In this document: in pieces, positions 9,337 to 19,763 of the stretch | How positions within the stretch are numbered: the first letter of the stretch is position 1 | Layout of the letters: the number at the start of each line of letters is the position of its first letter | Assembly (NCBI GenBank): GCA_024275565.1 | Contig: JAJRYY010000194.1 | Location: forward strand, 1 to 44,572 | Length of the DNA stretch: 44,572 bases | Origin: Planctomycetota bacterium | Lineage (GTDB): Bacteria > Planctomycetota > Phycisphaerae > UBA1845 | Reading direction: 5' to 3' | Translations under genes and position numbers: made by a program | Notes under the pieces: generated by a model | Seen by the model: only the letters and a program-made list of their open reading frames with translations | What the model was told of the DNA's origin: nothing | Database searches by the model: none

Positions 9337-12252
9337 TTATGGCTGATCGTTGTTGAGCTGATTGCCCTGCCACGCCTGGGTCGCAGAACCCGCGCCCGTC
9401 CAGAGTTGCCTCCATCGGAGTAGGTCGAGCGCCTGGATGTTGCCATTGCGGTCGATGTCAAATCGATCGGTAAGGACACCCTGCTCGGGATCGGCAATGG
9501 CACCGGTGAGCGCCTGCCTCATGCGAAGCAGATCGAGCGGTTGCACGCGACCGTTTTGATCGACATCTGCCGGCAACGCTGCGATGCTGACGCTGTTGTC
9601 ATCGACGATTGGGTTGCCAGCCAGGTCTTCCACATTGGCGGTGACAGTCGTCCACTCCTGCAATGTAATGATCCGGTCGAAAATTACAGTGACGCTTTGA
9701 TTGTCCTCGGTTTCAATGCCTGTGATGTTTGGCGCTGCACCACCACCGGTCTGATCTACTGAAAAGGCCGACATTGAAAGTGTCTCGCTGCCGATGTCGG
9801 TTACAGGTTCTGAGAACACAAGCGTGACGCGATCAAGCCCAAGGTTGTGATCGTCCCCGTTGTTGCTTTCCCTGCGTGAATCGACGTATCCGGAGAATGC
9901 CTGAGTGCTGAAGGCTGTGTCCGGGGGTGCCTGCGGAAGGAACGGTTGAATCGTGTCTTCGCAGAGAATTACATTGACACTGAAATTGTCGATTCCTGAC
10001 TCGGTGAGAGAGTTATTGGGATTGTCGCTGACGACGAAGCGAACCTGGACGGTGGCTGTGGGGTCAACGAAATCACTGGCGAGGAAGCTGTGGTTTTCCC
10101 AGCTGCTGTTGGTGCCCATCGTGCTGCTGACTTCGACCCAATCTGTACCGTTGCTGGTTATTTCGGTGACGAGTGAGTCGATATCACCACCGCCAACCGG
10201 GTTGGAGAAGTGCCATCTCGCATAGCTGATGACAGCATCGCCAGCTGAGAGGTCGATGACAGGGGAGGTCAGGGTCGTGGGACCACCGTCAACATCGGAG
10301 GCTCCTACTCCGCCGCCAATATGTTGCTGAGTGATGTAGCACATGGTGTCAGCACCGTCGCCCGCGTCGTCTTCAGGCTGGGCCATGTTGCCACCCGTCT
10401 GCGTACCGACAGGGTTGACGCGTTGCCAGTCACCAGCCGTCAGGTCCTCAAAGTCAACAGTCCATTCGGGCGTATTTTCCTCAAATCGTTCATCGAGGAC
10501 TGTGTTAATGCCGAAAGCCGACAATACGCTGTATGTGTTCGTCGGCGCACCCGGCGGACTGACAAACTCCGCTCCACCAGTTGCGGTGATGGAGATGTAG
10601 AACTGTATGAACGAAGCGCAGTCGGCTTCTGGAAGGTTTACGACGAATCCGTCCTCCAGTTCTGCCAGGTCAGTTTCAACAAAGGCTTCGCCATTCACTG
10701 AGACGAACTGGCTGGCTGAGACGATGGCAGTATTCACAGCAAAGAGGTCCACCGGTATCTGAGTTGCCGTATCGGGTAGAACACTGTCCGGAATGCCGTC
10801 AGGGAAGTCGAAGTTGACGGCTGCGGGTTGCACATTGACCCAGACGCGTGTGGCGTTTCGTGTCCCAATGACCATATCTGGGAATCCGTCACCGGAGAAG
10901 TCAAAAATGGCGGCGTCATGCGTGTCCTGCGGCGTCCATGGGCGTGCCGAATGAAGTTCCCTGATCGTGGGGATCGGTCCGTCACCGAGATTTCGGTAAA
11001 TGTGAGCGCGACCACCACTATCGATATCGACATCGAAATCGCATATATAAATGTCTGTATTTCCGTCCTGATCGAAGTCCGCGCCCAGGTTGTTCCCGCC
11101 GAAGTTGTTATCCGTACCACCATCAGAGAGTAACTGTCGTGTCGCATAGTTGACCGTGCCGTCAGGGTTGAGGCCTGTGCTGATCATGTAGGCATCCCGC
11201 CCGTCGTCCGTGACGATGATGTCAGGAAATTCATCGTCATTGAGGAACGCGACGTTCACATGGTAGGGCAAGCTGGTGTATACGGCGTCGTAGGTTTCAA
11301 AGTGACCGGGGTTGTCGGGGTTGTTGTAGGCGGTCCCGATATACTGCGGTGCGAGCAAGGCTGAGTCTTTGACGATGTCGTTGAAGCCGTCATTGTTCAT
11401 ATCGGCGATGACATTGGCCATACCGAATGCGGAGTTTCGGAACGGAAAGTTCTGACTCACCACGGTGATGCTTCCAGAGAAGCGACTGTCGGTTTCTTCG
11501 GTGAAATTTCCGCTGCCATCGTTAATCAAAAGGATGTCATCGACATCGACGCCGAAGGGGGGTGGAGGCACTGAGGGTTGGTCGTAATCTGTAAAGTAGA
11601 GGTCCATGTCGCCATCGTTGTCAATGTCGCCGGCTGAGACAGCGCAGAGACGCGGTGCGTAAGCGGTGCCATCGGGTAATTCAGCGATGAGCGGAAAACG
11701 ATCATTTTCAAAACGGAATCCCTGCCAGACGCCGCCAACCTCACCGAGATTGATGTAAATACGCGGATGAGAGATATGCTTTGGTTGACCGTCCGAGAGC
11801 GTGGTCGCAGTGATAATGTCCAACCATCCGTCGCCGTTGACATCTGCCAGCGCAACGTCGCGGTCGTTGGTTGGTGTGTTGAAACCCTGGTCGCCCGCGA
11901 CCGTACTCTGCGTGACGAATTCGTCCGTCCGATCAACAAACACACCGTCAACGCTTCGACCATCGGCGATACCCTCATTGATCAGAAGGATGTTGACGCG
12001 CCGACCTGTCGTGGTGAGTGTTTGCTTGCGCATGACAACGATGTCAATGTCTCCGTCCTGATCGACGTCGCCCCAGGCGTAATCCACCTCGTCGGGGTCG
12101 TTGGCACCGACGCCAGGATCAGCAATAAGACGTGTGGACGTCTGATCTACAAATTCGACCCAGTCGCTACCACCAGCCAGGGCGGGTGTAGCGATCGCGA
12201 GAACAGTCAGAAGTGTGCATCGTCGCAGAAAACCTATATGCGGCTGGCGCAT
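9337..12252 (-). CDS. Secreted VCBS/FG-GAP protein with jelly-roll and dockerin-like domains
   Basis: Large exported protein, 971 residues, with signal peptide (FLRRCTLLTVLAIATPALAGG). Residues about 30-500 carry repeated FG-GAP/VCBS calcium loops (DVDQDGDIDI, DVNGDGWLDI, DIDNDGDMDL, DFDQDGNTDI), typical of a beta-propeller. A MAM/choice-of-anchor-like jelly roll follows (LDERFEENTPEW to SGIDNFSVN), then an Ig-like bacterial domain (DRVTLVFSEPV). The C-terminal dockerin-like pair is DVDQNGRVQPLDLLRMR and DIDRNGNIQALDLLRWR, two EF-hand-like calcium loops. GGAGG sits 9 nt before ATG 12252; GTG 12255 is equally possible. A terminator follows, and a 648-bp leader with 13-bp repeats precedes. Function is likely surface binding or adhesion, inferred only. 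Confidence 0.85.
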   Translation of the reverse strand: MRQPHIGFLRRCTLLTVLAIATPALAGGSDWVEFVDQTSTRLIADPGVGANDPDEVDYAWGDVDQDGDIDIVVMRKQTLTTTGRRVNILLINEGIADGRSVDGVFVDRTDEFVTQSTVAGDQGFNTPTNDRDVALADVNGDGWLDIITATTLSDGQPKHISHPRIYINLGEVGGVWQGFRFENDRFPLIAELPDGTAYAPRLCAVSAGDIDNDGDMDLYFTDYDQPSVPPPPFGVDVDDILLINDGSGNFTEETDSRFSGSITVVSQNFPFRNSAFGMANVIADMNNDGFNDIVKDSALLAPQYIGTAYNNPDNPGHFETYDAVYTSLPYHVNVAFLNDDEFPDIIVTDDGRDAYMISTGLNPDGTVNYATRQLLSDGGTDNNFGGNNLGADFDQDGNTDIYICDFDVDIDSGGRAHIYRNLGDGPIPTIRELHSARPWTPQDTHDAAIFDFSGDGFPDMVIGTRNATRVWVNVQPAAVNFDFPDGIPDSVLPDTATQIPVDLFAVNTAIVSASQFVSVNGEAFVETDLAELEDGFVVNLPEADCASFIQFYISITATGGAEFVSPPGAPTNTYSVLSAFGINTVLDERFEENTPEWTVDFEDLTAGDWQRVNPVGTQTGGNMAQPEDDAGDGADTMCYITQQHIGGGVGASDVDGGPTTLTSPVIDLSAGDAVISYARWHFSNPVGGGDIDSLVTEITSNGTDWVEVSSTMGTNSSWENHSFLASDFVDPTATVQVRFVVSDNPNNSLTESGIDNFSVNVILCEDTIQPFLPQAPPDTAFSTQAFSGYVDSRRESNNGDDHNLGLDRVTLVFSEPVTDIGSETLSMSAFSVDQTGGGAAPNITGIETEDNQSVTVIFDRIITLQEWTTVTANVEDLAGNPIVDDNSVSIAALPADVDQNGRVQPLDLLRMRQALTGAIADPEQGVLTDRFDIDRNGNIQALDLLRWRQLWTGAGSATQAWQGNQLNNDQP

Positions 12253-12900
12253 CACATTGTTCCTCCATGAGAACCCAAAAGTATTAGTGAACAGGATATC
12301 CAACAGAACCAGACGCATCCAAACGCAGAGGAAGAGGTGGCCGGGTTCAATATCACCTTATCAAATTAAATTGCGAGTAAAACCTGCGATCACAGCAGTT
12401 ACTCGCAACGACAGCTACCACACGCCGATACGGGCAGTTGATGCGGACATGGCTGAGACGTACCTCGCTTCGGTCCGCCGCCAAGGGCCGCTCTGCGCGG
12501 CAAAGATGGCGCTGATGATTGGCACTGACCTGAATGTGCTGCAGGATGTCGTCAACACGCGTCGCCAACACATGCGGTCAACACGCGTCGTCAACACCTG
12601 TCGTCAACACATGTTCATCCACGCAACGTCCGCATGAAACATGCACCCGCAAGCACATCAAGCCTCTCAGAGTATTGGTTGAGGTCCGTAATCGCAAGGA
12701 ATTACTGAACAAATACCACATTTTGAACGGAAAGTCCTTGTGTCATGGAATATTTTCAGTGAGGCATGACAGGGCGACCAGTAGCAGCGTATCGGAACAC
12801 CATTCGGGGCGAATCGCCGATGACCAGGCCAGCGCCCAGTACCCGCACATACCCGAACCGTTTCGCCAGTCTTGAGGACACAGAGATGGCGTGCCATATC
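12253..12900. other. 648-bp gene-free stretch upstream of the dockerin gene
   Basis: No convincing gene on either strand; the open frames here have no start signal or protein-like composition. It carries five 13-bp direct repeats (12546-12610). It must contain the promoter of the minus-strand dockerin gene, but no clear -35/-10 pair stands out. An AT-rich patch near 12355-12375 is the likeliest promoter site. Confidence 0.6.
12546..12610 (-). repeat. Five 13-bp iteron-like direct repeats
   Basis: Exact 13-bp periodicity over five adjacent copies (starts 12546, 12559, 12572, 12585, 12598). The plus-strand consensus is NNGTCGTCAACAC, that is GTGTTGACGAC on the strand of the downstream gene. 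The CAACAC core is invariant and the other positions vary slightly. Spacing and lack of spacers exclude CRISPR. The array could be a regulator-binding array or a slippage product. Confidence 0.8.
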
Positions 12901-14139
12901 TTACCGCGTGCGTTTTTGCCGTTGCTTCCAGAGTCGGGCGAAATGCTGGGCTTCCTTGCGGTGTCCACGGTCCAGGAGATCTTTGGCTAGACCGCGAAAA
13001 TTGCGCTTCATCCCATAATACCATCGTCCGGGGAACGGGCTGCGATCGTGATGCTGCTCCGGATGTTGACCATAGGTTGCTGCATCGGCGAGAAGCTGTT
13101 TTGTCGAGACAGGCCCCAGATAGATGATCTGAATCTGGCCGTTTTTATCAACAAGCAGGCTCGTCGGCAGCGCCATTTTGCCCGGCTTGTTGAGGACGTG
13201 TCCGATAAGTGCGTCGAGGACGTCGAGCGTAGCTTTGTCGATGGTTTCAAACGCGAAATCTGTCGCCTCACCTGGGGACGCATCCTTTGTGGCGAAGGGG
13301 AGTATTTTGCTCTTAAACAAACGCCGGGCAGCCGTGTGATCTTCGGGTTTATCCACGGAGCGCAGCACGAGGCTGAGATTGGCTGCGTTGAATTGCCCGG
13401 CATGCTTGGCGAATTCGGTCAATTCCGCCACGCACGGTGCGCACCAGTGTGCCCAGAGGTTAATCAGACGCGGGCGATCATCGGACGGTGCAGCCGGCTG
13501 AAGTTTCTCAAGCAGGCTTGACGAAAGCGGAAGCGGTACGCGGAGTACCACGCGCGTCGCGGACGGCGTTTTGACGTCCGGTGCGGGGGCTGCTTTGATC
13601 GTTATGTTTCGTGGCGCGACGGTTGCGAATTCCGAAGCACCCTGCGTGAGCTTGTATCGGCGATCGACTTCCGGACCGTCCAGCGTCTGCGTCTCAGCAC
13701 CAGGCCAGCGCACCACAATCTTGTCGATCCTGTCTGCCGTTCCAAGCCCGAAGTGCATCCACTTCGAGGATTGTGCCATGTATCCGTCGCCCGCACGAAG
13801 CTCACGGACGAGTCGTTTCCCACCGGCAAAAATCTCCACCCGGGCACCGATCGCGTCGTGGTTGCACGTCTTACCTCGCAATTTCAACGCGACCCAATGA
13901 TGACCGGAAGCGTCATCGTTACGCATGAACCGAAGCTGCGGTCCTGTACGATTCCGCAACCAGAGATCGAGATCGCCATCGCCATCCCAGTCCGTCACCG
14001 CCAACGCTCGTCCGTCATCAAGAAAATCCAGTTGCGCGACGGCAGAGATGTCAACAAATGTATTATCCTGGAGATTCAGGAATGCACAGTGTCGCTCCCG
14101 CCCGGACCACGATGCTCCAGTGTTCATAAGCTGCGTCAT
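12901..14139 (-). CDS. ASPIC/UnbV plus thioredoxin-like region (3' part of an interrupted gene)
   Basis: Read from ATG 14139 this gives 412 residues with no signal peptide. It begins inside an FG-GAP/ASPIC domain (DWDGDGDLDLWLRNR, then IGARVEIFAGGK and WMHFGLGTADRIDKIVVRWPG, the ASPIC core). A thioredoxin/TlpA-like domain follows with WCAPC in LINLWAHWCAPCVAEL, and a basic tail ends it. The frame is open upstream of 14139 for 29 more codons (SFFWRRVASESP, then NGWAAM) to a single TGA. Beyond that, the 14227-16044 ORF continues in the same frame. The ATG is therefore probably internal and this is the C-terminal part of one 1047-residue secreted protein. See the TGA/SECIS entry. WCAPC suggests thiol-disulfide redox activity in the periplasm or at the surface. 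Confidence 0.75.
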   Translation of the reverse strand: MTQLMNTGASWSGRERHCAFLNLQDNTFVDISAVAQLDFLDDGRALAVTDWDGDGDLDLWLRNRTGPQLRFMRNDDASGHHWVALKLRGKTCNHDAIGARVEIFAGGKRLVRELRAGDGYMAQSSKWMHFGLGTADRIDKIVVRWPGAETQTLDGPEVDRRYKLTQGASEFATVAPRNITIKAAPAPDVKTPSATRVVLRVPLPLSSSLLEKLQPAAPSDDRPRLINLWAHWCAPCVAELTEFAKHAGQFNAANLSLVLRSVDKPEDHTAARRLFKSKILPFATKDASPGEATDFAFETIDKATLDVLDALIGHVLNKPGKMALPTSLLVDKNGQIQIIYLGPVSTKQLLADAATYGQHPEQHHDRSPFPGRWYYGMKRNFRGLAKDLLDRGHRKEAQHFARLWKQRQKRTR

Positions 14140-14181
14140 CGCCGCCCAACCGTTGACGTAGCTGGTTTCCTCATTTTCGCT

Positions 14182-14229
14182 ATCGCCGACCGGCGATTCC
14201 GACGCAACGCGTCGCCAGAAGAAACTTCA
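14182..14229 (-). promoter_or_regulatory. In-frame TGA with SECIS-like stem-loops (candidate selenocysteine codon)
   Basis: TGA at 14229-14227 separates two ORFs in the same frame; read through, it is codon 606 of 1047 in the context NARKDDL-U-SFFWRRV. Directly 3' on the minus strand is a stem-loop, CGACGC-GTT-GCGTCG (14214-14200), with a lower TTC/GAA stem across a TGG bulge. Its loop starts with G at +19 from the TGA. A second perfect 6-bp hairpin, ATCGCC-GGTC-GGCGAT (14197-14182), has a GGUC loop at +36 to +39. Known bacterial SECIS elements lie just after UGA, with an early loop G about 16-37 nt away, and the E. coli fdhF element has a GGUC loop. Assignment as Sec is inference; sel genes are not in the window. 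Confidence 0.6.
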
Positions 14230-16044
14230 CAAATCGTCCTTTCGAGCATTCGTCAGAAACCCGTTCGGAGCGATGATGTCGTCGTATGCATCGTTGTTAA
14301 TATCAATCGTCTTCGCACCCCAGCTCCACCGCCCCATACGGATGCCGGCGACCTCACCAATGTCCTCAAACGTCCCATCGTCATTGTTACGGAACAACGC
14401 ATTCCCCAAGGTATGATGCTGCAATTCCTTGCGAATACCCTCGCCAGCCGACGCTTTGAACCGCGTCTGATAGGCTATCCGCTGACCCGCAGACGAGAAC
14501 ATGTTCGCAACATGCAGATCGAGATCGCCGTCCAGATCGATGTCAGACCACGCCACGCCCATCCCAGCCGCCTGATCCTCCACGCCCGCCTCCGGAGCGA
14601 TATCCACAAACGTACCGCCATCGTTGCGATACAGATTGTTGCGCCCAAAATCATTGGCAACATAAAGATCGAGATCACCATCGTTGTCGAAATCGCTCCA
14701 CGAGGCAGCCAGGCTGAACCGAGAGTTGTTCACATGCAGACCCACCTCACGCGTGACATCCTTGAACCCCGCAGCCCCATCATTTCTCAGCAGATGGTTC
14801 GGAGGTCCATTGTTCGCATCGTGAAACGGCATCGGGATCGACAGCCCGTATTGCTGCTTGACATACCGACAACCGTAGATGTCCAGGTCGCCATCGTTGT
14901 CATAATCTGCGGCTGATAGCGAATAAAACGCAGCATCCGTCCCTGCCCGCAGCTTCCTGAACGGTGTGAACACGCCCTTGCCATCGTTTTGGCAATAGAC
15001 AATCGTCGGACCCATCGCAAGCAGCAAATCCTGATCGTCATCGTTATCAATATCCACAAGCAGCACACCCTTCGTCGGGTCCAGCCACGGCATGCCCGCG
15101 TCATAAGCGGTATCACGAGTACTCCCGTCAGGCTGCTGGATATAAAGGCGATTGGGAAGCCCATTGCCGGCAGCCACATACACATCATCGAGATCATCGT
15201 TATTCACATCGCCCACTGCGACACCTTCATGCCCGAGGAAATTCAGCTCACCAACAGCATCGACTCGGCCATACCAGTACTCACCACCGAGCGCCATCTG
15301 AGCCTTCCACGTTTCGTCTGGCGGAATGACTGATGCAGTGCAATCGGTGAAGAGCGCACCTGCTGTCGTAATCTCCTCGAAACGCTGAAGACGGATGCTC
15401 TGAATCAGCGGGTGATCGGGGTCATGACCAGGTCGCCACGAGACCAGCCACGTCGCATTCTGCTGAATCCCGGACGGTGACGATCCACCGTCATTCACAT
15501 TGGCATACACCTGGTACAGAACGGACGTATCATAATACCCCTCAGTCTCGCCCGGATGAACACTGGTGATCTTAAACGCGAAACGAAGATTCCTGGGTTT
15601 GTTAAGTGGTGCGATCAATTCTTTCAGCGCGATGATTGGCGGCTGCGTCGGTCTGCTTGCATCCGGGACGCTCGTCCGCCGCACGCCTGGATTGGCCTCG
15701 TGGGCAATATCGAGAACCTTGGGGCGGAGGCGATGCAGTTTTGCATCTGCAGCAAAGAACGGTGTTACGCCCTGACTCAGGTCAGCCCCTTTTTCAAGAT
15801 GTTTCGCGAGTGCTTTCCCAAGGTCTTTCATCTGATGCTTGGCGTGGGAATGGTCGATCTCCGTCTGCCAGTCGTCAGCTTTGGGATTGCTTTTTTCCAT
15901 CAGCTCATCAATCTGAGCGCGTCGATCCGCCGCAGATTGTGCAAAAGCAGTCGTCGCCGAGCATAGCACGCATAAACTGAGAATGCATAAACTGAGAATG
16001 CCTAAACTGAGAATGTCTGTGTATCGCAAGGTTGTGTCCCTCAT
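14227..16044 (-). CDS. Secreted FG-GAP protein, N-terminal part of ASPIC/UnbV-thioredoxin gene
   Basis: This ORF of 605 codons ends at the TGA discussed separately. ATG 16044 is preceded by AGGAG (16054-16050); an in-frame TTG at 16062 is less likely. The signal peptide is MRDTTLRYTD followed by a hydrophobic repeat of ILSLG/ILSLC units and cleavage near AFA-QSA. A helical, charged region follows to about 130. FG-GAP calcium loops are dense from about 270 (DVNNDDLDDVYVA, DIDNDDDQDLLLA, DYDNDGDLDIYG, DFDNDGDLDLYVA, DIDLDGDLDLHVA, DINNDAYDDIIAP). The protein stops in NGFLTNARKDDL, in the middle of a propeller that resumes in the downstream ORF (DWDGDGDLDLWL). Truncation there would remove a blade, the ASPIC domain and the redox domain, so readthrough or decoding of TGA is the more natural reading. 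Confidence 0.82.
   Translation of the reverse strand: MRDTTLRYTDILSLGILSLCILSLCVLCSATTAFAQSAADRRAQIDELMEKSNPKADDWQTEIDHSHAKHQMKDLGKALAKHLEKGADLSQGVTPFFAADAKLHRLRPKVLDIAHEANPGVRRTSVPDASRPTQPPIIALKELIAPLNKPRNLRFAFKITSVHPGETEGYYDTSVLYQVYANVNDGGSSPSGIQQNATWLVSWRPGHDPDHPLIQSIRLQRFEEITTAGALFTDCTASVIPPDETWKAQMALGGEYWYGRVDAVGELNFLGHEGVAVGDVNNDDLDDVYVAAGNGLPNRLYIQQPDGSTRDTAYDAGMPWLDPTKGVLLVDIDNDDDQDLLLAMGPTIVYCQNDGKGVFTPFRKLRAGTDAAFYSLSAADYDNDGDLDIYGCRYVKQQYGLSIPMPFHDANNGPPNHLLRNDGAAGFKDVTREVGLHVNNSRFSLAASWSDFDNDGDLDLYVANDFGRNNLYRNDGGTFVDIAPEAGVEDQAAGMGVAWSDIDLDGDLDLHVANMFSSAGQRIAYQTRFKASAGEGIRKELQHHTLGNALFRNNDDGTFEDIGEVAGIRMGRWSWGAKTIDINNDAYDDIIAPNGFLTNARKDDL
15971..16015 (-). repeat. 15-bp x3 tandem repeat forming a signal-peptide core
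   Basis: Three 15-bp units (15971-15985, 15986-16000, 16001-16015), the last with one change, encode the repeated pentapeptide ILSL(G/C) in the hydrophobic core of the signal peptide. The unit is a multiple of three, so the frame is kept. Confidence 0.9.
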
Positions 16045-16174
16045 CGCTGCTCCTGAATCCAAGCCTTACCAGCCTCGAACCAGTTGTCGGCAACCCCGGC
16101 AAAAAAGTCAAGGCCCGCACCACCTGGGCGTCGTGAGTGTGCATGACAGTATTCTCGACAACACACCCAGGCTC

Positions 16175-18796
16175 TCATTGCGATCCACGCGAACTCCGGG
16201 ACCCCGAGTACCGTGTATTGTGGATACGATGACTGGCCTTCGTGGGTAATTCCGGCATCCCTCGACCATATCGCTGATGATCCATATCCCGGTATGGCAA
16301 CGGAAGAACCGTCCGCCCGCGCTCCACATGGTAATCCCCGTCTTTATCATACCCCACGCTGTAGAAGAAAAAGTCACGGGTGACACCCTGTGGCAGTGGC
16401 GGCAGGCGGTGCGCATCGAAGGAAAGTACAACTTCATCCCCACCGGCAAGAATCGCGAATTCGTCGTCTGCGTTTGACACGAGGTCAAGTACGTCGCCAT
16501 ACCGCGTGACGAACCCCGCAGGGCGACGTCGCCATTTGGGAGTATCGGTGGTGATTGAATAGCTGGGCCGATCGGGGAGGGTCACGGGATGTGGTGGGAT
16601 CACCCCATGACCATGCCATTGCAGTGTTGCTTCAGTCGGCAGCAGATGGGTCTCAGTCGAGCGATTGTGTGAAGTGCTGCTGAACAGGGCGATTCGGTCC
16701 CAGTGGATTTCGAAGGCCGTTGTGAGGCGCAATCTTTGCGCGGAGGTCGGGAGCTTACCCGTGAGATCGACGAGGATGGTCTTGGTCTTCCCAGCAGGTG
16801 CAGCCGGCGGGATGTCAATGGGCAGCCAGACGTTGTTCCCCGTGTCGCATTCCAGGGTTGGCCAGGGGTAGGGGAGGTCGGGGTGCAGGCTGGCTGCGAC
16901 GTTACCGGTTGCTCCCCCGTATTGCAGCCAACCGGTCAAGGCGAGGGTGAGCGGCTTCTCGGTGGAGAGCGCACCAAAATCGAGTGTGACTGAGAAGGGT
17001 TCGGCACTGCCTCGAAGCTGGGGAATCCTGAGTTTCTGCGGCGACACCACCTGGTCGTCAATGGATCGTAACGTGTGTGTCACATTGGTGGCACCCGCGT
17101 CGGAGGAATTGTCAACAGTGGCGTGGCGGAGCGGAATTCTGATGCCGAGGGTGACCAGTTCGCTTGGGGGGATGGGTTCCGGGCGGAGTGCGTCTGTGGT
17201 GTGGACTTCTGTCCCTGTGGGATGGTCGATGGCGACGAGGCGGACGCTGTCCAGATAGAGGATTTCGCGGAGTTCTTCCGTAATGCGGAGTTCGTAACGA
17301 TCGCCGATGGGCGGAAAATCCTCACTGCTGCCGATGCGGACGTATTCGTCGGGGTCAGTATCGACGAAGGTGTCCCGGTCACGGCGGAGTCCGAGCGGAG
17401 CAGCCCCGAGGATGTCTGTGATGAAGCGGAATTGTTCACCGTCCCACGCGTAGAGGTAGGGGCAGGATGCGGAGGAGACGCGGGGTTCCTTGAAGGTAAC
17501 CGGGTCAGTGCCGGAAAGTGACACTTCAACCTCTGCCTGCACGATTTGATCGGACCAGACGATTGTGATGGAATCCAACAGGGTTCGGTTTCCGACGCCG
17601 ATTTCGATGGGAAGCCGGTGGATGGTTCGGGCTGTCCGGAACGCACCTGCCCGGATTTCGACGAGCACGCCAAGTCCCGCATAATTCGAGCGTGTACCAA
17701 CAAGATTCATTTTCAGCAGACGATTCACGACGGAATTCTGGACACGATTTTCGAGTATATGGAGGCGTCTGTCACTTGTGGTAATGAGAAGGTCCGTGGT
17801 TCCGTCTCCGTTGAAGTCAGCCGGATGGATGGCTGTGATGGGATTCCCCGAGGTTGCGGATGCGATGCTGGACATTGCGGATGCGATATTTGTATCGCCG
17901 CTGACGTCGTCGAATTTCTGGAACCCCACATTGCGAAAGAGACGGAGCGTCTTCCCGGCTGCGGCGATGTCAAGCCAGCCATCGTTGTCATAATCGAGCA
18001 ATGCGAGTGCCCGGATGCTGAGGTTCTTCGTTTCGATCGTATAGCGTCCTGCATCACCACCAAAGACGATGTGGAGTGCGTCAGGTGCGGCGATGACGAT
18101 GTCGGCACGGAGATCGTTGTTCAGGTCGTCGATGGCGATGAGGTGTCCTGCGGGCAACTGTGGTGTGATGTCGAAGGGGGCGACCATGCCAAGAAGTTGA
18201 TTTGTGAAAAGTGTCGGTGGACTGGCACTCCGGGCGACAAAGAAGTCTATGGTTTCGTCGTTGTTGAAGTCACAGGCGATGGCGTTTGACGCACCCGGGA
18301 GGGGCGCGTCGAGCCCGGTATCGCTGGTGGCGTCTGTGAAGGAGAATGCACCGTCATTTCGGAAGAGGCGGAGTTTCCCGTCGGTGGCGATTGTGAGGAG
18401 GTCGAGCGTTCCGGTGTGGTCGAGATCGATGGGGAGCGTGGCGGTTGCGGGGGTTGTCGCGAAAGGGGTTTTAGTGGTGATGTCACTGAAAGTGAACGTT
18501 TCGTCGCCATTATCAGCCTTGTCGTCGCTCGCAGCATTTTCAGGACTCTCATCGTTTTTTGACCCGGAAAAAATGCGGACGGATGTCGGGCTTGCGGCGA
18601 TGATGTCGATGCGGGCATCGTTGTTGAGGTCAGCCACCGCCAGGTGTGTGATGGATGCTGCGTTGGGGCAGTCCGCTGTGGCGAGGGTCACCGAGGATTT
18701 ACCCCGAAACTCCAGGAGGACGAGTTTTCCGTCGGTCGTGGTAGCGAGAATATCGGCCATCCCATTTTGGTTCAGGTCCAGGGTGGCGACGGGCAC
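16175..18796 (-). CDS. FG-GAP/ASPIC-type surface protein (3' part of a TPR-FG-GAP frame)
   Basis: Read from GTG 18796 this is 873 residues. The N-terminal half has FG-GAP loops (DLNQNGMADILA, DLNNDARIDIIA, DLDHTGTLDLLT, DFNNDETIDFFV, DYDNDGWLDIAA, DFNGDGTTDLLI). An ASPIC-like segment comes next (GLGVLVEIRAGAFR to LLDSITIVWSD). A C-terminal region of about 400 residues opens with CPYLYAWDGEQFRFITDILG, seen in large planctomycete and acidobacterial propeller proteins; its function is unknown. There is no signal peptide at this start. The frame is open upstream for 43 codons to a TAA that ends the TPR ORF, in the same frame, and GTG 18796 is the only ATG/GTG/TTG codon in that stretch. The real start is therefore doubtful and the protein may belong with the TPR ORF. 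Confidence 0.75.
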   Translation of the reverse strand: MPVATLDLNQNGMADILATTTDGKLVLLEFRGKSSVTLATADCPNAASITHLAVADLNNDARIDIIAASPTSVRIFSGSKNDESPENAASDDKADNGDETFTFSDITTKTPFATTPATATLPIDLDHTGTLDLLTIATDGKLRLFRNDGAFSFTDATSDTGLDAPLPGASNAIACDFNNDETIDFFVARSASPPTLFTNQLLGMVAPFDITPQLPAGHLIAIDDLNNDLRADIVIAAPDALHIVFGGDAGRYTIETKNLSIRALALLDYDNDGWLDIAAAGKTLRLFRNVGFQKFDDVSGDTNIASAMSSIASATSGNPITAIHPADFNGDGTTDLLITTSDRRLHILENRVQNSVVNRLLKMNLVGTRSNYAGLGVLVEIRAGAFRTARTIHRLPIEIGVGNRTLLDSITIVWSDQIVQAEVEVSLSGTDPVTFKEPRVSSASCPYLYAWDGEQFRFITDILGAAPLGLRRDRDTFVDTDPDEYVRIGSSEDFPPIGDRYELRITEELREILYLDSVRLVAIDHPTGTEVHTTDALRPEPIPPSELVTLGIRIPLRHATVDNSSDAGATNVTHTLRSIDDQVVSPQKLRIPQLRGSAEPFSVTLDFGALSTEKPLTLALTGWLQYGGATGNVAASLHPDLPYPWPTLECDTGNNVWLPIDIPPAAPAGKTKTILVDLTGKLPTSAQRLRLTTAFEIHWDRIALFSSTSHNRSTETHLLPTEATLQWHGHGVIPPHPVTLPDRPSYSITTDTPKWRRRPAGFVTRYGDVLDLVSNADDEFAILAGGDEVVLSFDAHRLPPLPQGVTRDFFFYSVGYDKDGDYHVERGRTVLPLPYRDMDHQRYGRGMPELPTKASHRIHNTRYSGSRSSRGSQ

Positions 18797-18928
18797 GCGT
18801 AATGCCTCAGGAAATTTGACTTTGGTGCTTTTGAATTGAACATTGATGGGGGGCGGTGGATGATCGATTGCGGTCGCTGCCCGGGCCTGCGTATGGACGC
18901 ATTGCTCGTAGAAATATTCGGTTTTTTA
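18797..18928 (-). other. In-frame TAA between the TPR and FG-GAP frames
   Basis: The TPR ORF ends LEEHHRDL then TAA (18928-18926). The same frame then continues KTEYFYEQCV and on through a Pro-rich linker (AIDHPPPPINVQF) into the FG-GAP protein without another stop. TAA cannot be selenocysteine. A TAC/TAT to TAA change (a Tyr before KTEYFYEQ), a base-call error beside the A6 run, or true separate genes are the options. It is recorded as a possible interrupted gene. Confidence 0.5.
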
Positions 18929-19687
18929 CAGATCGCGGTGATGTTCTTCGAGTCTCGCGTGGGTCTGGAGTTCGGTGCGGGCTTCGTCGCGTTTGCCGGC
19001 GCGAGCGAGAAGTTGACCGAGCATGTAGTGGGCGGAAGGATGCTTCGGGTCGAGGGCGACGCAATCACGGAGATCCCGGATGGCGGCGTTGTTTTCCCCG
19101 ATCTCCTTGTGCGCACGCCCAAGCTGGTAGCTGACGGCTGCGATACCGGGTTCGAGCGATTTGGATTGGTCGAGGGCTTTGATGGCGGCGACAAAATCAC
19201 GATTCCTGATCTGCGCACAACCGACGATATAGTAACCAGCCGCAGATTCAGGATCGATCTGGATTGCTTCGCGGGCATGTCGGATGGCGTCGTCGAGATT
19301 GTTTGCCCGCAAATTCGTATTCGCCAGGTTAAGCCGTGTCGCAGCATCTGAGGGGTGGATACGAGCGGCTGTTGTGAAAAGCTTGAGGGCTTTGGCGAAT
19401 TCTCCCTTGTCGTAAAGTGCTTTGCCGAGATTTCCAAGCCGCGTCCATTCGTTGATATCGGTCGCTTTTTTGGAATCATCAGCCAGGACCGGTGCTACGA
19501 GTATGACCAGGACGACGATAAACGGGACGAATGGTGTCGCAAGTGTGACGTTTGATTCTGCTTTCTTCGTGATCCTCAATGCGCAGAGAAATGCCAAGAT
19601 AGTGCCAAGACATTGTACGTGTCCGGGCAACGTATCCACGGACGTATTGTCCGGATCGCCGGGCGTGTCGTTTTTTGTGTCGGTCAT
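18926..19687 (-). CDS. Membrane- or export-targeted TPR protein
   Basis: 253 residues from ATG 19687 (an in-frame ATG at 19735 is also possible). A polar leader with a first hydrophobic stretch (about 25-36) precedes a strong hydrophobic segment (ATPFVPFIVVLVILVAPVLA, about 50-69) that is either a late signal peptide, cut near LA-DDS, or a membrane anchor. From about 78 to the end come about five tetratricopeptide repeats with clear A-G-F-P patterns (NLGKALYDKGEFAKAL, NLANTNLRANNLDDAI, YQLGRAHKEIGENNAAI, YMLGQLLARAGKRDEA). TPRs mediate protein contacts. The ORF ends at a TAA after which the same frame continues into an FG-GAP protein, and TPR plus FG-GAP/ASPIC is a known architecture in Planctomycetota and Acidobacteria, so this may be the N-terminus of one gene. 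Confidence 0.78.
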   Translation of the reverse strand: MTDTKNDTPGDPDNTSVDTLPGHVQCLGTILAFLCALRITKKAESNVTLATPFVPFIVVLVILVAPVLADDSKKATDINEWTRLGNLGKALYDKGEFAKALKLFTTAARIHPSDAATRLNLANTNLRANNLDDAIRHAREAIQIDPESAAGYYIVGCAQIRNRDFVAAIKALDQSKSLEPGIAAVSYQLGRAHKEIGENNAAIRDLRDCVALDPKHPSAHYMLGQLLARAGKRDEARTELQTHARLEEHHRDL

Positions 19688-19763
19688 CAGTGTGCTAACC
19701 CATCCGTGAAAAAAAATACTAGCCAGTTCGTCCAATTGCGATTAGGTATTATGCAGCAACATT

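Follow-up and report, generated by a model that had tools for sequence, protein, structure and literature searches.

A conserved in-frame UGA, very probably read as selenocysteine, in a CRTAC1-type propeller protein of Planctomycetota

The window, that is, the whole stretch of DNA analysed (44,572 nucleotides of contig JAJRYY010000194.1 from the Planctomycetota bacterium assembly GCA_024275565.1), carries on its minus strand a single frame of 1,047 codons (16044-12901) that is broken by one TGA alone, at codon 606 (14229-14227). Mechanical ORF calling divides this frame into two minus-strand ORFs, 14227-16062 and 12901-14139; directly 3' of the TGA the sequence reads SFFWRRVASESP, and the next ATG is the start of the second ORF. 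The original prediction had taken the two ORFs, parted only by TGA, for one split protein with an FG-GAP propeller, an ASPIC core and a thioredoxin domain, and the order of Pfam domains along the joined protein, which holds them all, agrees: FG-GAP_3 (1.1e-33), UnbV_ASPIC (1.3e-20, residues 731-797) and AhpC-TSA (7.1e-8, residues 857-972). The coordinates of these and the other features are collected in Table 1.

Table 1. Features of the read-through gene and of the hairpins downstream of its UGA, in window positions.
Feature	Position	Strand	Remarks
Probable read-through selenoprotein gene	12901..16044	-	1047 codons, UGA at codon 606, TAA end; homologues of the same length
UGA, very probably read as selenocysteine, codon 606	14227..14229	-	TGA at the same column in 104/121 distinct ORFs
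Probable signal peptide, about residues 1-36	15937..16044	-	judged by eye from the sequence
FG-GAP beta-propeller region, about residues 275-700, holding Sec606 in predicted helix 605-616	13945..15222	-	Pfam, AlphaFold2, CRTAC1 (9etn) fold match
UnbV_ASPIC domain, residues 731-797	13654..13854	-	Pfam
TlpA/ResA-like thioredoxin domain, residues 857-972, CxxC formed by Cys868 and Cys871	13129..13476	-	Pfam, fold and profile matches
Putative SECIS, hairpin 1	14199..14215	-	family stem 14215-14210 with 14204-14199; conserved, covarying
Second hairpin (GGUC loop), ATCGCC-GGTC-GGCGAT	14182..14197	-	not conserved, probably not functional

The protein shares its propeller and ASPIC domain with the CRTAC1 / ASPIC-UnbV family (Pfam PF07593, PF13517), and both domains score above their Pfam cut-offs (116 bits against 26.9 and 73.5 against 23.4). 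An AlphaFold2 model of the joined protein, built on a 38-sequence alignment, has a mean pLDDT of 89.4 and places residue 606 second in its predicted helix. Murine CRTAC1 (9etn) comes first among the PDB fold matches (E 1.5e-26, TM 0.73 by target length) and is also found as a profile match at 1.3e-21, although that match has neither selenocysteine (Sec) nor a thioredoxin domain and its profile alignment does not cover the Sec segment. ResA is also among the fold matches, and the C-terminal part of the protein gives profile matches to the thiol-disulfide oxidoreductases TlpA and ResA, with which it has its CxxC in common.

Two neighbours lie on the same strand. Downstream, an FG-GAP protein (9337-12318) ends in a C-terminal dockerin type I domain. 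The upstream neighbour (16175-19735) consists of a TPR ORF (18926-19735) and an FG-GAP ORF (16175-18796) in the same frame; this split was considered as a second Sec gene and rejected, because the stop that parts the ORFs (18928-18926) is TAA, and the pair may be a unit of two genes or what is left of a fusion that has decayed.

The codon aligned with the UGA was compared across homologues gathered at several depths. A species-wide scan, with one genome per GTDB species and the best 80 loci kept, returned records titled Planctomycetota, Verrucomicrobia, Acidobacteria, Gemmatimonadetes and others among the matches listed; in this unfiltered set, 121 ORFs among the matches listed have hits spanning the column, and at the 70 of them scoring at least 300 bits the codon is TGA in 62, the other eight having S, S, D, D, N, C, A and F. 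A broader set, assembled in part by selection, has TGA at the column in 104 of 121 distinct ORFs, and the 17 remaining residues among the matches listed are five Ala, four Glu, three Asp, three Ser, one Asn and one Cys, the last in L036. This set consists of all UGA rows scoring 200 bits or more, without L029, which comes from the record of L080; of seven non-UGA relatives chosen by name; and of the 40 UGA ORFs and ten ORFs without UGA from order-wide and phylum-wide searches, less two duplicates. It leaves out the non-UGA rows of the species-wide scan, of which only L120 exceeds 300 bits; L120 has Phe at the column, lacks part of the segment and has, by eye, a thioredoxin site without CxxC, and counting it the TGA share among the matches listed becomes 104/122. 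Non-UGA rows below about 250 bits are mostly gapped at the column and represent distant CRTAC1 proteins among the matches listed. UGA homologues were found in Planctomycetota, Verrucomicrobiota, Acidobacteriota and Gemmatimonadota.

The codon is embedded in a motif, D-L-U-S-F-F-W-R, whose flanks are nearly invariant: among the matches listed, Asp604 occurs in 104/104 UGA rows, Trp610 in 102 and Arg611 in 101. The proposed homologue comparison thus gave TGA at the aligned codon with SFFWR conserved downstream; it had been expected to yield Cys or TGA at codon 606, and the TGA part of that expectation stood, whereas Cys appeared in a single homologue. Among 100 relatives, 27 match at 1e-40, each match listed having one TGA or none, and in an alignment of 30 loci 16 have TGA at one column, seven have an amino acid there (C, N, S, S, D, D and A), and the remaining seven have a gap or fall short of it. 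A draw across the phylum found matches at 1e-120 in 68 of 392 genomes, giving 101 rows: 85 with one TGA, 11 with none and five with further stops, the UGA rows whose sequences were not retrieved being read here by the number of stops and not by their position. One stop-free row, in G132, ends short of the column, and in the other ten the residue is E, D, S, E, A, E, A, A, A and E, respectively. Six genomes (G205, G309, G464, G472, G480, G492) carry a non-Sec form plus a UGA copy, so non-Sec forms appear often to stand beside Sec forms, as paralogues would; in G353, G442 and G453, which have a non-Sec form, no UGA copy was found at the 1e-120 threshold.

Several side observations accompany these searches. 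A tblastn search against plasmids returned 17 records, none covering 80% of the query. One homologue (L228, in G133) carries, besides the canonical TGA, a second and a third in frame that follow it by 21 and 25 codons; L089, L127 and L129 are loci with two UGA-bearing homologues each in the same orientation; and L035 and L087 are longer homologues with a C-terminal TPR region after the thioredoxin domain.

The conserved column bears on two alternatives. If the UGA were a normal stop, the locus would hold two separate genes, or translation would restart at the downstream ATG; mechanical ORF calling does yield two ORFs, and UGA is also an ordinary stop in the window, since TGA ends 10 of 20 hand-picked long ORFs. 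However, a restart would leave the most conserved motif, W610-R611-x-V613, untranslated between the UGA and the next ATG, and neither homologue set (62/70 and 104/121, among the matches listed) has TAA or TAG at the column in any row, so that there is only a very slight chance that this reading is correct. A pseudogene or a sequencing error at codon 606 might be suspected in a draft, metagenome-type assembly of 236 contigs, but the same TGA recurs in about 100 distinct ORFs from many assemblies among the matches listed. Moreover, the part downstream of the UGA appears to be translated, because dN/dS there is low in the two of seven pairs for which values were obtained both upstream and downstream: about 0.14 in L028/L080 (upstream 0.07) and about 0.12 in L122/L142 (upstream 0.10). 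Decay or error is, on these grounds, scarcely credible.

The original prediction had described two hairpins 3' of the TGA as a candidate SECIS, and both are present at the positions it gave; the first stood up in the family and the second did not. Hairpin 1 (CGACGC-GTT-GCGTCG, 14214-14200) starts about 12 nt after the UGA. When counting starts at the U of UGA, positions 15-20 pair with 26-31 in the family stem; in the window variant two Gs face each other at the outermost position, and a pair C14209-G14205 makes up for this, so that the loop is GUU. In PMC13188914, bacterial SECIS elements are constrained to a loop of 3-9 nt, a stem of 4-16 bp, a G in loop positions 1-2, a UGA-to-loop distance of 16-37 nt and a minimum free energy of -7.5 or lower; the window hairpin agrees with these published values (a 6-bp stem and a GUU loop, the latter 18 nt away from the UGA), with a folding energy of -10 kcal/mol for the 36 nt that contain it and -8.8 for the hairpin alone. 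Taken by itself, the 36-nt segment of the window does not fold more stably than expected by chance (z -0.67, with an equal or better fold in 46 of 200 shuffles), which bears out the earlier caution that hairpins alone prove little.

From the matches listed, 68 UGA ORFs were read codon by codon, and the six stem pairs form in 361/408 cells across all 68 rows and in 344/354 cells across 59 of them, the nine omitted rows (L122, L124, L142, L129 twice, L145, L152 and L127 twice) forming the stem in a different register or having a different hairpin; the corresponding figure for seven near relatives that lack UGA is 24/42 cells. When L029 and both L127 rows are set aside, the remaining 65 rows show 25 cells changed on both sides, whereas shuffles give 5.7. 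Pairing occurs in 89.7% of their cells; shuffles reach 82.4%, and sliding the stem gives 67.7% at most. These figures hold for the matches listed and are inflated by kinship, and the stem was itself drawn from the same sequences. L094, which has a further stop, was omitted from the stem analyses. An example is provided by L103 and L105, in which C16-G30 becomes A16-U30 through an Arg AGG codon together with a Pro CCT codon. To judge from these alignments, hairpin 1 is a SECIS of the bacterial kind that is conserved and covaries in the family. It shows no fundamental difference from the bacterial model in PMC13188914, lying likewise in the coding region right after the UGA with a G at the start of the loop and, in many rows of the family, GGUC; its six-pair stem is common to most of the family. 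The second, GGUC-looped hairpin was not seen in the other homologue sequences compared, and as a SECIS it was dropped for want of conservation.

For the machinery of selenocysteine insertion, a search of the genome had been proposed. That search returned selB and selA, adjacent on contig C91 of the window's genome, and selD on contig C180 (locus L160). The selD gene has an in-frame TGA in ASCAG-U-AGK, at what we take to be the usual Sec site of SelD; given this UGA, the SelD of this genome is probably itself a selenoprotein. It is a protein unrelated to the one described here and comes from a known selenoprotein family. The remaining component, tRNA-Sec, was not found in the draft assembly, and cmscan and ARAGORN detected no tRNA around selA-selB. 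This counts against the selenoprotein reading, although an assembly that is 94.95% complete and in 236 contigs may well miss a gene of 95 nt. Among the 21 genomes searched, the window's own included, tRNA-Sec scored above cut-off in 17 and was not found in G000, G020, G023 and G029, the last of which has a UGA copy; its flanks in six relatives held no gene of note. As a separate observation, ARAGORN reports on contig C76 of the window's own genome (L072) a tRNA-Stop with anticodon tta, possibly a suppressor-type or misread tRNA.

Across genomes, selA occurs in 85 of the 100 nearest relatives. In the phylum draw it is present in 66 of the 68 genomes with matches compared with 176 of the 324 others (Fisher p 1.7e-13, uncorrected for kinship, the overlap being read off lists by eye). 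UGA matches without a selA match occur in G005, G049, G263 and G393, drafts that are 79-89% complete (G263 84%, G393 87%); G005 and G049 nevertheless have tRNA-Sec.

A third alternative is readthrough of the UGA, or its reassignment, with insertion of another amino acid such as Trp or Cys, and indeed the conserved column by itself does not name the inserted residue. Against this stand the use of UGA as an ordinary stop elsewhere in the window, the covarying hairpin 3' of the codon, the company that the matches keep with selA, and the residues found at the column among the matches listed, where Trp TGG occurs in no row and Cys in one only; there is next to no likelihood that this is the explanation. 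Selenocysteine decoding of UGA codon 606 is instead almost certain on the combined comparative evidence: the protein reads as a selenoprotein because the UGA lies in a conserved motif, the hairpin behind it covaries, and SelA, SelB and SelD are encoded in the genome. The prediction of a candidate Sec at U in DDL-U-SFFW was, by these lines of evidence, largely right.

The likely role of the residue is suggested by a second pattern. Among the matches listed, the thioredoxin CxxC is kept in 95 of 97 scored UGA rows and in the one Cys row, but in only two of the 14 scored rows in which neither Sec nor Cys stands at the column; there the changed sites are often D-x-x-S (Fisher p 2e-12, uncorrected; nine of the 121 rows not scored). 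The scored UGA rows without an intact CxxC are L107 and L211. On a tree built without either site (one quick tree and one FastTree were used), agreement is seen in about three independent pairs and disagreement in none, while about three others show no difference (sign test p 0.25), so the joint loss of Sec and CxxC appears as a strong pattern on few events, about three independent losses.

Because homologues without UGA mostly lack CxxC, it seems probable, by a fair margin, that Sec606 and the fused CxxC thioredoxin form a redox couple. In the mechanism that would follow, SelB with Sec-tRNA would bind hairpin 1 and Sec would be inserted at the UGA, giving one exported, CRTAC1-type propeller protein of 1047 residues; Sec606 would be the reactive group that meets the substrate, and the fused TlpA-type CxxC domain would return it to the selenol, the last two steps being suggested by the co-loss. 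A peroxidase- or reductase-type activity can be put forward tentatively, at somewhat less than even likelihood. Conserved propeller cysteines were considered as partners of Sec and set aside, since Cys392 occurs in 74/106 and Cys653 in 65/106 UGA rows among the matches listed, each in part of the rows and thus not as a general partner.

A different function for the same selenoprotein would make Sec606 a ligand, to a metal or a substrate, rather than a redox centre served by the thioredoxin. The Asp or Glu at the column in seven of the 17 non-Sec rows among the matches listed would suit a ligand, as would the UGA proteins L127 and L129, which have no thioredoxin domain; yet 12 of the 14 scored rows with neither Sec nor Cys have an altered CxxC, as against two of 97 UGA rows among the matches listed, and the Cys row retains it, all of which leaves a ligand role unlikely. 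At L127 two UGA genes stand in tandem and a redoxin gene with WC..C lies further downstream, beyond an acyltransferase gene; at L129 no redoxin was found among the three neighbours scanned. The overall reading of the gene as that of an exported selenoprotein, with the type of reaction left aside, is very likely.

Why the family should be almost exclusively Sec-containing is an evenly balanced matter: the chemistry may depend on selenium to such a degree that Cys almost never takes its place, and a lineage that loses Sec may give up the whole redox function with it, leaving acidic or small residues at the column and a dead thioredoxin site. PMC12013277 describes almost all selenoproteins as having many Cys homologues.

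A Sec-bearing TlpA family, UGC-containing, appears in PMC13188914, and in Sec-bearing TlpA/ResA the Sec lies in the thioredoxin site, whereas here it lies in the propeller; the NCBIfam model NF041054 (ResA-like WAxxUGC) matches L087 at 33.6 bits, far below its cut-off of 300. At the curated cut-offs, none of the models in NCBIfam release 20 matches the window protein, and no selenoprotein model matches any of four relatives. Table 1 of the 2026 catalogue PMC13188914, which lists 119 selenoprotein families, has no CRTAC1, ASPIC, UnbV or FG-GAP family in its available part, and no mention of FG-GAP, UnbV or, where checked, CRTAC1/VCBS was found in the available parts of PMC12013277, PMC9312934 and PMC2398784. 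A literature search with few subscription journals and preprints found no bacterial selenoprotein paper of this kind and none joining selenocysteine and FG-GAP. Planctomycete selenoproteins are reported in a supplementary table (S9) of PMC4807772, which may already list the family; on present evidence, the large family described here would be absent from the catalogues checked, as far as their available parts go.

If this reading is true, it would add a common, uncatalogued selenoprotein of Planctomycetota and Verrucomicrobiota, present in at least four phyla, with Sec in a propeller-borne helix and not in a thioredoxin-like site. Such a family would have escaped notice because searches rely on Cys homologues and gene annotation breaks off at the UGA; discovery methods that begin with Cys forms would have a blind spot here, and the genes of the family in public genomes are likely annotated as two pieces. 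The built-in pair of Sec606 and CxxC 868-871 is testable, with natural non-Sec relatives as controls, and the protein would point to an extracytoplasmic reaction that depends on selenium and takes place on a propeller of the CRTAC1 type.
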